NCBI GenBank assembly: GCA_943704525.1
Contig: CALSCQ010001755.1
Location: forward strand, 1-26,565
Source of the DNA: Pigoraptor vietnamica
Lineage: Eukaryota; Opisthokonta; Filasterea
Direction of reading: 5' to 3'
DNA length: 26,565 bases
The translations under genes were made by a program, and so were the position numbers. Below are positions 4,517-22,522 of the stretch, piece after piece (the stretch's first letter is position 1; the number at the start of each line of letters is the position of its first letter). The notes beneath the pieces are model-generated. The model was not told the DNA's origin, ran no database searches, and saw only the letters and a program-made list of their open reading frames with translations.

Positions 4517-5594
4517 TTATACTTGAACGGCTGCAGAACGAAAAGATATTGGCGTAAGTGAAGCGACCCTGGCAGTCACAAAGCACGAGCACGAACACAA
4601 CACAAGCACACTTTCACGCACGTACACATGCGCACACGAACACACGACACATGCAAACCCACTCCCACACACTCCCACGCACCAGCGCCAGCGTCCGGCA
4701 TGCGCTCGATTGTGAACTTTCGCTGCGAGATATACATGATGGGGACACCAGGGATCTTTCGGATGCGCCGCTTGAGCTCGCGATCGCACGTCGCAACAAT
4801 GTAGCACTTGTGCTGCGCAACAAGGCAAAGAAAAGATTAGCGGGACATGCAGACGCCAGAATAAGCACTCCGATCGAACGCTCTCATCAACAACACGATG
4901 CACGATCGTGTACGGCATTAGACGCCTGCACTTGCGTAACACGATGCACGCGGTACACAGCATTAGAGGCCTACGCACTTGCGTAACACGATGCACGCGG
5001 TACACAGCATTAGAGGCCTACGCACTTGCGTAACACGCTGCACAAGGCAGTCGTCGGCGTATGTTCCCTTGTGCATGCACGGAAGGCGCTCAAACCGCGC
5101 GTCCTTCGCAATGCGCAGCGCCACACGGTATTTACTCCCTGGAAAGCTCACATTAGAACGAGATCGTATCACATTCAACCCCATCGCCTCGTGTACAGCG
5201 CGCAACCACGCACGCAGAAAGCGGGATTGCCTTCAGCGGGCCACCCACCGAGCTTCTCGAGTTCTGCCATGACGCAGTCGGTGATGCATGGGACGCACTT
5301 GGCGTAGAGACAGTCCATCATGGCCTTCATGATCTCAAGCTTGTTCTGAATGCTAAAGTTGATGAAGTTCGTGTCGAGCAAGACACGGTACGGCGGCCCC
5401 AGCTGCGTGTTGTAGCGAAAGAAGAGCGCCGACGAGAACTGCGGCAGCTGCCTCACTGCTTGCACGATGCCGTTCTTCTCCGCGGGTTTTTTCTCCTTCT
5501 TCTCGTCCTCCTTCGCCTTAGTCACGCGGCCGTCCTTCGCCGAAATGACGCGCTTCACGGCGGCAAACTGCCGCGTCTTCTTCGCCTTGCCCAT
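4517..5594 (-). CDS. FCF1: rRNA-processing PIN-domain endonuclease FCF1/UTP24
   Basis: FCF1 is the nucleolar PIN nuclease of the small-subunit processome that cuts pre-rRNA at sites A1/A2. Exons on the minus strand are 5594-5249, 5138-5026, 4812-4683 and, tentatively, 4530-4517, giving 200 residues, the usual family size. It starts [11 protein letters not shown] as orthologues do. PIN acidic residues are visible: D74 in LLDTNFIN, E111/E113 in MAELEKLG, D144/D145 in [11 protein letters not shown], and D163 in [10 protein letters not shown]. The segment [14 protein letters not shown] is nearly invariant in the family. The last exon is the weak point: it adds only AVQV after MPDAGA and lacks the GAPR-type end of many orthologues. 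Intron 2 contains a 47-bp tandem repeat copying the preceding splice donor. FCF1 shares a 465-bp divergent promoter with AGPS. Confidence 0.93.
4891..5037. repeat. 47-bp tandem repeat spanning an FCF1 exon-intron junction
   Basis: The sequence beginning gcacttgcgtaacacg recurs at 4928, 4975 and 5022, an exact 47-bp period; a diverged copy covers roughly 4891-4927. The copy at 5022-5037 is the true end of FCF1 exon 2 (VTQ) with its gtgcgt donor read on the minus strand. The other copies lie within intron 2 and reproduce the exon end plus donor. Confidence 0.93.
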
Positions 5595-6058
5595 GTTCGT
5601 GCGTGCGTTGCAGCAGCAAAAAAAACAAGGTTGGGCGCGAGCAGTTACTTCTTCCTCCACACCAACACGTGCAAGTGGTGGTCTTGCAAGCAATAGGGCG
5701 TTCGTGTGTGATATTAGAATCCGGGGTAGAAAAGCAACACGTGAACACGTGACCGATCTGCTCCGACGGCTGTACTGTGTCCAGACACCCGGACACCCCA
5801 ACACGCCACACGGCTGGGAGGTGTGCGTGCACGCTGTTTCTCGTCCTCTCCTTGCGCTCTCGCGAGTGGGCGGTCGCGGGGAACTTCATACTGTGTGGGC
5901 GCATGGTATCACTGTGCTGTGATAAGGAGCGCGCGGCGGATGCGGTGGTCTTGCTCACTGCGAGAAGTTCTCGAAGCGCCTATCTGGTCACACCAACGCA
6001 CAAGGCGAGTCGATATTTTTTGAGTCTAGTCACCGATACACGCGCACTTTTCGCAACC
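5595..6058. promoter_or_regulatory. Divergent promoter region of FCF1 and AGPS with three CACGTG boxes
   Basis: This 464-bp interval separates the start codons of FCF1 (leftward) and AGPS (rightward). It carries CACGTG E-box palindromes at 5666-5671, 5738-5743 and 5746-5751, the last two only 8 bp apart. No TATA box is obvious. The regulatory role is inferred from position; no factor is known for this organism. Confidence 0.55.
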
Positions 6059-8085
<2,027 letters not shown>

Positions 8086-15062: not shown

Positions 15063-15941
15063 ATGGCTCGCGCCATCCTTTTCGCCGCTCTGCTCGCCCT
15101 TGTGGGCGCGGCCCTTGCCACGCCGCCGCCGACTACCAACATGCTTACATGGCTGGACCCTATGGCGACCAATGCGTTCCAGATGAACAGCGACGGCACG
15201 CACGTCGTACGCTGGGTTGACCAGTCGCCGCGTCACGTGGACTACGTGCAGCCCACGGGCGCCTCGCAGCCGACGCTGCAAACCGCCACGTCACCCGCCC
15301 TCTTCCGCCGCGACACGAACGGCTACTATTACTACTCTTGCTCGTACTCGTGCTCGACGTACTACTACCAGTCCGACTCGATGACGACGAGCGGCGGGTC
15401 GATTGGGTCGTCTTCGTACCGCCGCCGCCGGTTCACGCAGCTCCTGGGTGGCCTCCTCCAGCCCAACCCCACGACGCACATCTTTGTCGTGACGAACACG
15501 GTCGGCATCACGCAGTCGCTGCTCGGCTCGCAGCACCTGTTTGAGCTCGAGGGCGCCAATCCCCTTCTCAGCAACCTGCGCGTCGGCTCGTTCCTTGTCA
15601 ACCTCGGTCGCTCGGTGGGCCTCTCCATCAACGCGCTGACGAACCTCGCCGTCGTCACCAGCCTCTTGGGCGGCTCGTCTACGAAGAGCGACGTGTGGAC
15701 CTTCACGCTCCAGCCTGCCATTGGTGGCCTCACGACGGTCGTTGGCGTGTACAAGAACAACGTCGCCCAGGCGCTGTCGACGTCGGTCCTCCTCGGCACG
15801 CCCCCCATGAACGGCGTCGGCTTCGTTGGTCGCCAGTTCGAAGGCCGCATTTCGGAGCTCATCATCTACTCGGACCTCTCCGCCGCGTCGCGCTCGTCCG
15901 TCAACTCGTACCTGTGCTCCAAGCACGGACTCACTTGCTAA
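15063..15941 (+). CDS. Secreted LamG/concanavalin-like lectin-fold protein
   Basis: Single-exon frame of 292 residues starting at the first ATG in frame. Residues 1-19 (MARAILFAALLALVGAALA) form a classic signal peptide with an AxA-type cleavage site, so the product is probably secreted. The mature part has the layout of LamG/concanavalin-like jelly-roll domains: WLDPM...VVRWVDQSPRHVDYVQP early, THIFVVTNT and LFELEG strands in the middle, and a closing GRISELIIYSDLSAASRSSVNSYLCSKHGL, typical of LamG_3 domains (ELIIYxxxLSxxxRxxVxxYLxxKxGL). There is no membrane segment. Residues 88-103 are a Tyr/Ser/Cys-rich insert (YYYYSCSYSCSTYYYQ). Ligand and role are unknown; it could be a cell-surface or extracellular-matrix lectin. 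No intron is needed, unlike its neighbours. Confidence 0.65.
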   Translation: MARAILFAALLALVGAALATPPPTTNMLTWLDPMATNAFQMNSDGTHVVRWVDQSPRHVDYVQPTGASQPTLQTATSPALFRRDTNGYYYYSCSYSCSTYYYQSDSMTTSGGSIGSSSYRRRRFTQLLGGLLQPNPTTHIFVVTNTVGITQSLLGSQHLFELEGANPLLSNLRVGSFLVNLGRSVGLSINALTNLAVVTSLLGGSSTKSDVWTFTLQPAIGGLTTVVGVYKNNVAQALSTSVLLGTPPMNGVGFVGRQFEGRISELIIYSDLSAASRSSVNSYLCSKHGLTC

Positions 15942-16255: not shown

Positions 16256-16267
16256 TCACGCGGTGGA
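16242..16267. repeat. 13-bp tandem duplication covering the carboxypeptidase stop codon
   Basis: The 13-mer ctcacgcggtgga occurs twice head to tail (16242-16254, 16255-16267). Read on the minus strand, the second unit holds the last codons and TGA stop; the first repeats them just downstream in another frame. Confidence 0.9.
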
Positions 16268-19200
16268 TGGCATAGTGCTCATACCGTGCGCATTATCGTC
16301 CAAGTCGAGGTCATCGTCGTCCAGCTCGTTCACGAGCGGTCGGAACCCAGCATAACGACGGTACGCCCGATAGAGAATGAAGCCCAGGACAACGAGTCCC
16401 ACGGTCGCAGCAACGCCAATGACAATGCCGGCCTTCGATGCAGGCGCAAGCTCCTTCTTGGGCGCAGGGACGTCGAGGAAGACGGGCATATCCACGGCGA
16501 ATGCGCCCATGCGGCCAATCTTCACGGTCGTCGTGCGCGCGTCGTAGCCGGCGGCGGAAATCGTCACGGCATACGTGTCCGCCGGAAGATAGCGGTGGAA
16601 GCTGCCGTGGGAGTCCGTGAAGACGGCGCGCGGTTTGAGAGACGTCGACGCAAACTCGACCTTCGCGCCGCTCACAGGTTCCTTGGTGGGACCGAGAACA
16701 GTGCCGCGGACGCCCGACTGCGCGCGGAGGAGGAAGTCCACCATCGCCTCGCGGTTCTCGTTCCACAGGCGCTCGAGGTTCTCGACGTACGGATACCGGC
16801 AACAGTCAATGCCGACGGATATCTCCAACGAAGTGCCGTTCATATACGCCGCGTCGCCGGGCGTCCCCGTCCGCGGATCTCGCTTCCAGCCCTCTGCAGT
16901 GCCGTCGCGGAAGTAAGCGGGAACAATGCCGCCGCTGCAACCCTGCGCTTTCAGGCCCGCAGAAAGAATGCTCGGATTGCGCGCTGCGTACGCGGCGGCA
17001 ACGGAATGGAGAATTTCGGCGTCCGGCGCCGCTCCCACAGCCGCCGGCATGCGCGCGTTAAAGGGGTACGTGACGCCCAACGATCCCGACGTGAGCTCGA
17101 GCGAGAGCACAAAGCCACCGAGGCGGGCCGTCCAGTCCATGAGCGCGCGCGTCTCCGGCTGCCGCGCTGTGTAGTGGGCGTCGGTGATGCGCTCGCCGCT
17201 GACGACGAGCATTGGCAGCTCTGCCGAGAAATCGGGGAAATCCGACGAGAGGTCAATACCGGCTGCGTTGGCGTTGCCGGTCGTCCCAATGCAATCCCCC
17301 TCCGTCGCGGCCGCAAAGCCATCGGGGTTGAGCACAGGGACAATGTAAATGTCCGTGCGGTCAACAATGCTCTTGAGCGTCTCGTTGCGGCCGTAGTTGA
17401 ACGCCAGGAACTGCGCGAGAAGGAGCAGCATCTCCCGGCCGGGGGCCTCCCCTCCGCGCACGCCGGCGTAAAGCCGAACGCGCGGCTCGCCAACTTCAAA
17501 GAGCGTCGGCGAATCGGACACGTGGATGGCCTTGAGCGTCGCGCCGCCCGCGCTGCGTCCAATGTCGCTCACGCGCACGATCGTCGGGTATTTGGCTGCA
17601 AGCGCATCGATCGCTGCGTTCAGCTCATTCGCCGAATGGTACTTGAATTCGTAAGGCGGCAGCTCGGGAGGGACCGTCGACGTCGGTGAGACGGTAGGCG
17701 TCGGAGAGCCGCTCAGGGCCGAGGTAGTGACCGGCACCGGCGGGAATGCGACGAGGGTGAAGTCGATGCGCGTTGCGGGGGCTTTGGCGACGACGACGAC
17801 AGTCTGCGTGACGTTGTGGTAGCCGTCCATCGTCACGGTGACGTCGTACGTGCCAGGATCGACGATGCGCCAGAAGTCGCCGAGGAGGGAAGAGTAGACT
17901 GGCCGCTCGTTCCCCGCGATCCACACCTTGGCCATGTGGATGGGCTGCGATGTGTTGAAGCTCTTCACGACGCCCTTGATGCCGCGATGGGCCTGTATAA
18001 TGAGGTCCAGCAGTGCGTCGCGGTGGTCGTCCCACAGCTCGCGAATCTGGTCGTCCTCGACAAAGGTGCAGCACGTGACACCAATGGCCAGCGGAAAGAT
18101 GTTCGGGCTGTGGCGGTAGAAGAAGTCGAGCGGCCCCCCCTTGAAAGGCCGCACCATGGCGCCGTTCGCAATCCCGTTCGCGAACGGAGGATACTCGTGC
18201 GGCGAAGACTCGCGGCAGAGAGAGCCGCCGAGCGACATCGTGGGGTGGAGCGCAGCATAGCGCGCCGCCATGCCCCGCAGCACGCTGTTGTCGGGCGTCG
18301 GGTTCTCCTGGAACTTGCCCGCACCCTCCACTGCGGGCGGCTCGTCCCACGGGTAGCGCACGCCGAGGTACCCGCCCTCAAGGAAAGCGCCGACCACATA
18401 ATGTGTGTCGTCGACGAGGTCGATGATTGCGTGCGTCTCCCGCTCCACGCCGTAGTCGGGCATCGACGTGTTGTAGTGCTGAAAGTCCGTGTTGAGGTCC
18501 ACATCCATGAAGTTCGTCCGGCTGTACGTCTCGTTGCACCGGTCGCCATCGGCGTCCATGAAGCCGTCCGGATTCACAGAAGGCACGAGCACAATGTTCG
18601 TCGAGTCGACGATGTTGCGGACGGTCGCGTTGCGCGAGTACTCGTGCGTGAGGTACCGTGCAAGCGCAAGGAGGAGCTCGCGGCCGCCGCTCTCGTCGCC
18701 GTGCACGTTGGCAAGAAGGACGACCTTGGGCTCGAGCAGCTCCACGAGGCCCGGATTGCCGCTGATCTCGACGGCCCATAGGTTCTCGTTCTCGACCGTC
18801 TTGCCCATCGTCCACATGACGCTGATGTTGTTGTAGCGCTCTACAATGTCGGCGAGGAGATCGTTGAGGCGATAGCGATCGTGCACGACCCACCTGTTCG
18901 CGAGCGAGTAGCATACGTAAGTTGCGAACGATTAGCATACGTAAGAAACGTTTTTTTTTTGGTGCCCTGTTGTTGAGAACGAGGGAGAGCAGCGGAGGAC
19001 CAGCATACGACGATCTCATGCGCACGAGAGGAGTACTCACTGGTACGCCTGCTCGAGATTGAAATTGAGCTGAACGGGCTTGTCGTCCGAAACAGTGACC
19101 GAGAGCGTCTGCGGCTCGTAGCCGTCCGCTACAGCCGTCACCTAATGCAGAGACAAGATGATACAATACTGGTTAAGCCAGACCTCCGTGCGCGATACTT

Positions 19201-21575
19201 CTCACTAAACTCCGCAGCAGCTTGCACACAGCGCGGCAACGAACTCGCGCAATTCTCACCTGGTATGTGCCCTTTTCAAGAATGCGAAAGTAGAAACCGT
19301 TCTCGTCCGCAAAGGTCGCGTGGTCAATCCCAGCGATGCGAATCTCGGCCCTCGGGCGCCGCTTGCCGTCATCGGTACCGATCACCGTGCCGCGAATGCC
19401 CGCGCCGTGCACGCGCGACACAAATGCAAAGAGGGCCTCGTAGTTGGCGTGCCACAGCGCGTCGAGGTCCGTCTCCAGCGGGAACCGGCAACAGCCCATG
19501 TTGATCGCAATGTGCGACGCGCCGCCGTTGTAGAAGTAATCCTGCATGGTCACTCCGCTACCCCCTACGGGACGGTGGAGGAAGCCCTGCCCGTTCACAA
19601 CCCCTCCGGTGTACGAGCTCGCCCCGCTGCACGACTCGGTGCCTTGCCACATTGTCGCGTGGCGTGTCGCATAGATCGTCGCAAGCGAGCGCATGAGCGA
19701 CTCCTCCGGAGTGCGCTGTGGATATCCCGGCACGTTCGTCTTCGCGTCCGCCTTCGAGTCATTCGTCTTGATAAACTCGTCGTATGGGTACGTCGCCACA
19801 AGAGCGCCACCGAACAGCGTCGCGCCGAGCACGTGGGGGCGGTCGCGAAGGAACGAGATGAGGATCTGCGTCTCGAGCTGCGGCGTGTAATCGGCGCCCC
19901 CGTCCGACTGCCAGATCGGGTAGTCCTCGTTGAGGTTGACGAGATTGCCATTGCCGATCGCACTTCCGGACGCGTCGCACTGGCCCACTTTCGACGACTC
20001 ATAGCCGTCGGGGTTGAGCGAGGGAATGACGTAAATGTCCGTCGTGTCGATGAGCGCGCGGATCGTGTCGTTCCGCTGGTACTCGACGGCGAGGTGGCGC
20101 ACAAAGTGCAGCAGGACCTCGCGGGAGCCGGCGTCGGGGGCATGCACGTTGCCGATAAGCAGCACGCGCGGGCGGCCGACAGTGAACAGCTCGGGCGAGA
20201 GCGTGAGCTGCGCCGCCCACACCGGCTGGCCCTTGACCGACTGCCCGAGACCGTGCAGAGCCATCACGTCGCCGTGCTGCGACTCGACCTGGCCGAGGAA
20301 CGCCTGCAGCTCTTCGTTGTCGTGATGGTGCAACAACGTCTGCGGCTCGAGGACAAAATCCGCGATTGTGACGTTGTTCGCGACCACGGTGATCGTCTGA
20401 GAGGCCGTCACGTAGCCCGTCGCCGAGACGACGAGCGTGTACTGACCGGGGAGAAGGAGGCGCCAGTAATCGCCGTGGGACGCCGAATACACGGGGTGGT
20501 TGCGTCCTGACACGTCGATCTTCGCGCCGGCGACCGGCTGCCCGTCCTCGTTGCGAATGAAGCCCTTTACGCCCATGTGCACCGTCTCGAGGAAAGTGAG
20601 GAGCGAGTTGAGGTTGTCGCTCCACTTCGACACGAGGTCGTCGGGGTCGGGATACTTGCAGCAGCCCATCTCGATCGTGATCTCAAAACAGTTGCTGTGC
20701 AGGTAGTTGTAGTCCTGCATGCTGCCGCGGAGGCTGTACCACAACGCGCCGTTCGTGATCCCGTTGTCAAAGTGCTCGCTGTACTCGGGGCAGCCGCTGC
20801 TCGTGTACATGCGCCCGTGGTTGCGAGAGTAGACGAGGGCGAGCTCGCGAAAGATGTCGTCGTCGGGCGTGGCGCTGTAGCCATCCGCGTTGTTGCGCGT
20901 ATCGTCGAAGGGATAGCTCGCGACGAGCGACCCGCCGTGAAGGTTGGCCGAGAGCACGAACGGGTGGCTCTGAATGAAGTCCATCATAATCTGCGTCTCG
21001 CGCTCCGAGGGACCGACCGAGACAAATTGGTCGGGAAAGTTGCGATTGAGATCGACGTTGTCGATGTTCGCGCGACCCTGCACGCCGTAGCAGTCACCCA
21101 CGATCGAATGCGCGTGTCCGTCGGGGTTCATGGTGGGCACAATGTAGATGTCCGTCTCCTGGATGAGCTTCGTGATGCGCGGGTCCTTGCCGTAGTTCAT
21201 GCACAAGTGCTCGACGAACAACAGCAGCATCTCGCGCCCAACGACTTCGTTGCCGTGCATGTTGCCGACGTATTTGAAGTGCGGCTCGCCGGCCTCGACA
21301 ATGCCCGGCCCATCGGTGATCTCGATCGCGTAAATTTCCCGCCCTTGCAGCGACGTGCCGAGGAGGATAAGGCGCGTGATGTCCGGGTACAGCTCGTTGA
21401 TCGTCTTGAGCGCATTCACAAGCTCTTCTTGGCTGTGGTGCTTGCCCAACTGCACGATGCGGTTCGTCTGCGCACGGGGTTCGTCGCGGGATGCGCTTGC
21501 TTCGCGTGCGCTGTCGGCGGCCGCGATGGCGAAGAGCGCGACGAGTGCGAGCGCGCGCACCAAAGCACGCGCCAT
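16256..21575 (-). CDS. CPD: Carboxypeptidase D-like membrane protein with four M14 repeats, one catalytically complete
   Basis: CPD-type enzymes trim C-terminal Arg/Lys from peptides in the trans-Golgi and at the surface. Exons 21575-19260, 19141-19041 and 18893-16256 give 1684 residues: signal peptide (1-20), four M14 domains each followed by a transthyretin-like domain, one transmembrane helix (~1626-1646) and a short acidic tail (NELDDDDLDLDD). Domain 1 is complete: zinc ligands H107, E110 and H213, LNRNF with R178, and catalytic E302 in ITIEMGCC. Domain 2 has H478 but D481 for Glu, F588 for His, E550 for Arg and N692 for Glu. Domain 3 keeps H870 and E873 but has E978, T941 and G1077. Domain 4 has R1285, T1407, S1356 and G1500 in those places. 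I chose M at 21575 because it opens the signal peptide directly; M at 21605 is possible. Vertebrate CPD has three repeats, only the third inactive. Confidence 0.95.
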
Positions 21576-22242
21576 TTCCCACCGGTACGTCGCGGCGAAC
21601 TTCATCCACGCACGGATTGTTGAAGATGGCGCGCCCAGAGCGGCAAACGCCCGTCAAAAGCAACGCGTGTCACAAGGTGGATCCCGAGTGACACACCCAC
21701 CCATACGCCAGGTCGATGACACACAGCCCGCCGTTTGAGAAAAGGGAGTTGTCGCCTCTTATCCCAAGGGGATGCGACAAGTAGAAAGCGGACGACGGGA
21801 GGGGCGCAGCGGCGGGGAGTGTCCGAGGGCGCGAGTGGAAGAATCGGATGCCGGTGTGTCACGGTGTGTGTGTGCGCGCGCGTGTGTCGGTTCCACTTGG
21901 GTTTTTTTGCGGGCGGCTAAATTTCCACTTTTGGCTGCCCGCGACCGTTGTATTGAACACACCCGAAATTCGGCCTGGAAAGGGAGGGTCGTTTCAATCT
22001 AAAAGTCCGAATGCAATTTAATTTGAGAAATTATCGACATTTGTTCAATATTTTCCATTTTTTTAATTAAATAGTCCCGACGCAAAAATAGCGGAAATAT
22101 AGGCCAAATTTTCCGTTCCGTCGTACACGTGTGGCTCCATTTCCCTTCAGTCACTGTGAAGTGGTGGCAGTCGTTCCCACTCGAGCTATTTTCACCTCAA
22201 AGCGCGGGCAGGGCTGCGCACCGGCGATCTTTCTCTGCGGCC
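21576..22242. promoter_or_regulatory. Divergent upstream region with AT-rich island
   Basis: About 670 bp between the start of the carboxypeptidase gene (leftward) and the small unknown gene (rightward). A GT/GC-alternating stretch lies near 21860-21890. An imperfect inverted repeat gcgggcggc...ggctgcccgc spans about 21909-21942. From roughly 22000 to 22120 composition swings strongly to A/T, with poly-T and TTAATTAA-like sequence, in sharp contrast to the GC-rich surroundings; this is probably core promoter or a nucleosome-free region. A CACGTG follows at about 22125. Confidence 0.5.

Positions 22243-22462: not shown

Positions 22463-22522
<60 letters not shown>

Follow-up and report, generated by a model that had tools for sequence, protein, structure and literature searches.

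Carboxypeptidase D (CPD) of human, duck and fly is composed of two active units followed by a third that is dead (PMC5683605, PMC11266112; whatever is taken here from these and the other cited papers is limited to the available parts of their texts). In animals, furin-like convertases make the products that CPD trims (PMC11266112, PMC5683605, PMC11093223). For the dead unit, domain III, a binding role has been proposed (PMC5683605, PMC11266112): docking suggested that human domain III can hold a basic peptide via the Asp of its S1' site (PMC5683605), fly CPD mutants without the inactive domain III have lowered viability, and domain III of duck CPD is required to bind a viral envelope protein (PMC11266112). 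Binding is accordingly the foremost role considered for units of this kind. In this study, we describe a CPD-like gene on the minus strand of a 26,565-nucleotide stretch of DNA from the filasterean Pigoraptor vietnamica (contig CALSCQ010001755.1, positions 1 to 26,565; hereafter the window). Judged from its sequence, the encoded protein is CPD-like and an unusual variant outside the layout described for vertebrate and fly CPD, with four units (D1 to D4) of which one is of active type and three are dead, as compared with the two active units and one dead unit of the animal proteins. CPX1, CPX2 and AEBP1/ACLP, which are also M14B pseudopeptidases (PMC11266112), resemble D2-D4 but have no active partner domain in the chain.

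The gene consists of three exons (21605-19260, 19141-19041 and 18893-16256) that join in frame to give 1,694 codons and a stop. A hydrophobic, signal-peptide-like stretch at the N-terminus (21516..21605; 19-residue hydropathy of 2.0 at aa 11) is followed by four units, each an M14B carboxypeptidase domain with a transthyretin-like (TTL) domain behind it: D1 (aa 51-422, 20340..21455), D2 (aa 423-816, 19041..20339), D3 (aa 817-1228, 17657..18892, with a Pro/Thr/Ser-rich linker at its end) and D4 (aa 1229-1622, 16475..17656). Behind them come a predicted transmembrane helix (aa 1637-1657, 16370..16432), which has the top 19-residue hydropathy of the protein (2.6) and a strong hydrophobic stretch at aa 1638-1656, and a predicted cytoplasmic tail of 37 aa (16256..16369, stop codon included) that is Asp-rich, with a GFxxL-like stretch and an acidic cluster. 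Pfam detected two Peptidase_M14 and two CarboxypepD_reg stretches in each of two long open reading frames (ORFs), or four M14 stretches in total, and an M14 family search of the genome returned four separate matches at this locus (E 1.5e-75 to 2.3e-38). The M14-then-TTL order holds in all four units, and the best PDB matches are CPD, CPM and CPN; all four are placed by Pfam, PDB match and alignment, and D3 and D4 also by a structural model with its fold match. The protein thus has the tandem M14B and TTL units of a type I membrane protein that characterize CPD, the signal-peptide-like start and the single C-terminal hydrophobic stretch being called by hydropathy alone, without a dedicated predictor.

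An earlier sequence-only reading of this DNA had placed four such units ahead of a membrane anchor, as Pfam and hydropathy now confirm, and was right about coordinates, strand and layout; it began the protein at 21575, where the second in-frame Met lies, the first being at 21605. Its description of animal CPD as three repeats with the last one dead holds for human, duck and fly (PMC5683605, PMC11266112). The likeness to animal CPD (human, duck gp180 and Drosophila silver) extends over the tandem M14B and TTL units, the signal peptide, the single C-terminal helix, the short acidic tail, and the location of dead units after the active one or ones; the three-unit layout with the first two units active is absent from this protein.

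Both introns are bounded by GT and AG. Intron 1 (19142..19259, 118 nt) lies within the TTL part of D2, and its retention would bring an in-frame stop before the intron ends (the ORF closes at 19173). Intron 2 (18894..19040, 147 nt) separates the D1-D2 pair from the D3-D4 pair, and its retention would place a TGA right after the last codon of D2, giving a two-unit form without the membrane helix. The position of intron 2 and this early end of the protein would fit two genes read as one, the first for a soluble protein of D1 and D2 and the second for a membrane protein of D3 and D4. We consider this highly improbable, as the first Met in the frame of exon 3 is residue 26, which lies within D3 and has no visible hydrophobic leader ahead of it, while the splice sites are regular and the TTL part of D2 runs on past intron 1.

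Alignment of D1-D4 with duck CPD-2, fly CPD-1, CPM, CPN and two bacterial proteins (10 sequences; bovine carboxypeptidase A numbering) separates D1 from the other units. D1, whose identity with duck CPD domain II is 50% (PDB-chain match, E 1.8e-122), keeps all of His69, Glu72, Arg127, Asn144, Arg145, His196, Tyr248 and Glu270, together with both members of the S1' pair for basic specificity, Asp207 and Gln255 (positions after PMC5683605). It is the only unit in which the zinc ligands, Arg145 and Glu270 are all present, and the claim of the sequence-only reading that domain 1 alone retains the full catalytic set is borne out. The same reading had D2-D4 each losing the third zinc His, the substrate-binding Arg and the catalytic Glu, and these are indeed changed at nine of nine places: D2, D3 and D4 have Phe, Glu and Thr at His196, Glu, Thr and Ser at Arg145, and Asn, Gly and Gly at Glu270. 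Over the other five catalytic positions, the three units retain 10 of 15 cells. His69 is retained in D2 and D3 (Arg in D4), Glu72 in D3 and D4 (Asp in D2), Arg127 in D3 only (a gap in D2, Asn in D4), Asn144 in D2 and D3 (Ser in D4), and Tyr248 in all three; the S1' Asp, which recognises Lys/Arg and through which docking suggested peptide binding by human domain III (PMC5683605), survives in D2 and D3, whereas D4 has Asn there, and the S1' Gln is kept, among these units, in D2 only. On this alignment, D2-D4 are without residues known to be needed for hydrolysis, but the loss is uneven among them. A shift of the key residues to neighbouring positions was looked for by eye against the four sequences of solved structure and the two bacterial proteins, and was rejected: no replacement His, Arg or Glu was found in D2-D4, the nearby His of D2 and D3 and Glu of D4 standing several columns off the catalytic positions.

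The zinc-ligand positions read His/Asp/Phe in D2, His/Glu/Glu in D3 and Arg/Glu/Thr in D4. An earlier account of the zinc site as lost from all the dead units is correct in that His196 is gone from each, and too strong for D3, in which Glu occupies position 196 and His69, Glu72 and also Arg127 are kept. The Glu at 196 is a possible metal ligand and, since the site is His/Glu/Glu, D3 might still bind metal. One could go further and regard D3, and perhaps D2, as not dead at all and as binding metal or peptide with altered chemistry, with His/Glu/Glu holding zinc and the loss of Arg145 moving recognition away from free C-termini and toward basic segments inside a chain. The kept His69 and Glu72 beside the His196-to-Glu change in D3, the Glu72-to-Asp change in D2, and the S1' Asp of both units would fit such a proposal, as would human domain III itself, which likewise carries an acidic residue, Asp, in place of His196, and Thr/Asp in place of Arg145/Asn146 (PMC5683605). 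Glu270, however, has been replaced by Gly in D3 and by Asn in D2, which makes ordinary hydrolysis very unlikely, and we regard altered chemistry as a doubtful explanation.

The parallel between D3 and human domain III is partial. The human unit keeps His69 and has Glu72 changed to Ala, His196 to Asp, Glu270 to Tyr and Arg127 to Gln, with Asp/Thr/Asp at Asn144/Arg145/Asn146 (PMC5683605); at the same places D3 has His, Glu, Glu, Gly, Arg and Asn/Thr/Asp. The changes that they share are Thr at 145, Asp at 146 and an acid at 196. Asp146 is weak evidence of kinship because D2, D4, fly CPD-1 and one of the bacterial proteins have it too; Thr145 and the acid at 196 could reflect either inheritance or convergence. 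The dead CPD domain would predate the animals if D3 and domain III of animal CPD go back to a common ancestral pseudopeptidase unit in which the peptide-binding site was itself under selection, with the present lineage having gone furthest, to one active unit serving three binding units; we hold this to be an improbable scenario. In a tree of 10 units the dead units fall on one side of a branch (98/97), but their end branches are very long (1.66-2.06) and were flagged by the program as unsure. By the approximately unbiased (AU) test, neither the grouping of D1-D4 together (p 0.32) nor that of D1 with duck CPD-2 (p 0.33) is rejected.

D2-D4 have diverged far, with pairwise identities of 31-32% (31-36% with D1 included), so that about two thirds of the residues differ, and no stop codon has appeared in any of them. 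In 200 simulated runs of unselected substitution, in a model free of indels, a unit of 372 codons taken to 35% identity acquired a mean of 10.3 stops and a minimum of 1. Decay of D2-D4 as pseudogenes was rejected, since even at identities of 31-36% (with D1 and among themselves) the units contain neither a stop nor a break in the frame. The sequence-only reading had likewise noted dead units of intact frame, which stands, and had put their length at about 1250 residues, which does not, the three units amounting to 1,200 aa (aa 423-1622). GC content at third codon positions (GC3) is 0.79-0.87 across the four units. D1 has six cysteines and the dead units have four apiece, in columns common with D1. 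AlphaFold2 models of D3 and D4, built from six-row alignments, have mean pLDDT (predicted local distance difference test) values of 68.5 and 66.5. The nine best PDB chains for these models are all CPD, CPN or CPM, with template modelling (TM) scores of 0.70-0.86 (0.77-0.86 against duck CPD-2, fly CPD-1, CPN and CPM), and the models accordingly present the M14B fold. Frame, GC3, cysteines and the models of D3 and D4 support the view that D2-D4 are folded pseudo-domains. Two PDB entries with a CPD chain, 9j6z and 9j7l, are titled AAV8 with its receptor.

Sixty-three alignment columns are invariant in the seven active-type sequences (D1 included), eight of them catalytic (Tyr248 counted) and 55 others (the S1' Asp counted there). 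When D2-D4 are pooled, the kept fraction is 10 of 24 for catalytic cells and 114 of 165 for the others (p 0.009, one-sided Fisher test), and in D4 alone 2/8 versus 39/55 (p 0.018). A rival explanation makes D2-D4 a mere folded stalk without specific binding, kept against misfolding and holding D1 far from the membrane. The loss of the same core catalytic positions from all three units, their wide mutual divergence, the persistence of frame and cysteines (and of the modelled fold of D3 and D4), and the absence of most substrate residues from D4 are all in agreement with a stalk. A pure stalk would have no need of the S1' Asp and Gln that D2 keeps, or of the S1' Asp, His69, Glu72 and Arg127 of D3, and the reduced viability of the fly mutants without domain III (PMC11266112) likewise speaks against it; we think a stalk of this kind unlikely, though less so than altered chemistry.

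We favour, with somewhat better than even confidence, the reading of the protein as a secretory-pathway basic carboxypeptidase in which D1 trims after a convertase and D2-D4 are non-catalytic pseudopeptidases for binding and spacing. As a CPD-like type I membrane protein it would reside in the secretory pathway, possibly in the trans-Golgi network, in endosomes or at the surface. A furin/kexin-type convertase would leave C-terminal Lys or Arg on secreted or surface proteins; D1 would remove these residues, while D2-D4 may keep peptides or partner proteins close to D1, and may set D1 at a distance from the membrane. By analogy with animal domain III, the binding or presentation role that the sequence-only reading had suggested for the dead domains is plausible; its further mention of a prey surface found no support. 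A convertase is encoded in the same genome, with an S8 subtilase domain and a proprotein-convertase P domain in furin/kexin-like arrangement (contig C269, around 42049-42309). The ORF downstream of it, without a Pfam match, has a hydrophobic stretch and then a GFxxL-like sequence with acidic runs, and by eye its tail resembles that of the CPD-like gene. A second match to the P domain (contig C850, 15467-15805) lies within an open frame of 7,331 aa.

Several observations weigh against this reading. S10 serine carboxypeptidases are also encoded in the genome, so that the trimming could fall to a Kex1-like enzyme or may be shared. The tail of human CPD has an acidic cluster and a TLY motif, which bind TBC1D23 and serve cycling between Golgi and endosomes (PMC11093223), but in the tail of the present protein there is no [TS][LIV][YFW] triad beside the acidic cluster. 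Taken singly, D3 (5/8 versus 36/55, p 0.58) and D2 (3/8 versus 39/55, p 0.07) show no significant depletion of catalytic residues. The models of D3 and D4 are of modest confidence, with several stretches of pLDDT below 50, and the geometry of a metal or peptide site is beyond them.

Relatives were sought among PDB chains, the genome holding the window (32.5 Mb, 1,395 contigs), prokaryote genomes and viral contigs. Within the genome, protein searches with D1 and D3 as queries found no other locus except a weak D1 match on contig C1318 (E 0.004); M14 matches in a Pfam search lie on six other contigs, of which the ORFs of C1318 were inspected, one showing by eye a carboxypeptidase A/B-like motif. 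None of 53 candidate stretches from viral contigs, and none of 33 from prokaryote genomes searched with D1, was confirmed as a relative. With the four-unit alignment as query, two of 19 stretches were confirmed, both of them bacterial M14B and TTL proteins (from Acidobacteria and Desulfobacteraceae) that have the same unit with all eight catalytic residues and 40% identity to D1; one such unit was seen in each, with no tandem array, unlike the protein described here. A four-domain CPD is not described in the available parts of PMC5000601, PMC11266112, PMC5683605, PMC11093223, PMC9925722 and PMC4141687, the phrase "four carboxypeptidase" in PMC5000601 being used in another sense. Four-unit CPD may nevertheless exist widely in eukaryotes outside this comparison set. 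Aplysia CPD reportedly has four carboxypeptidase-like domains, two active and the later ones without active-site residues; repeat number alone therefore may not be new.

Adjoining the CPD-like gene on the plus strand is an ORF of 292 aa (15063-15941) with a start that by eye looks like a signal peptide and with no Pfam match. Further away in the window are an Fcf1-type fragment (5175-5804, minus strand) and an FAD-linked oxidase (6583-8085, plus strand), and long GT/CA dinucleotide runs surround the genes (for example, 22464-22500 and beyond).

The fly benefits from the inactive domain III of CPD, but what this domain does in animals is unsettled. With three of four units dead and at different stages of active-site loss, the Pigoraptor protein constitutes a natural series, which could show which residues stay for binding after catalysis has been lost, and whether dead neighbours are of benefit to a lone active unit.

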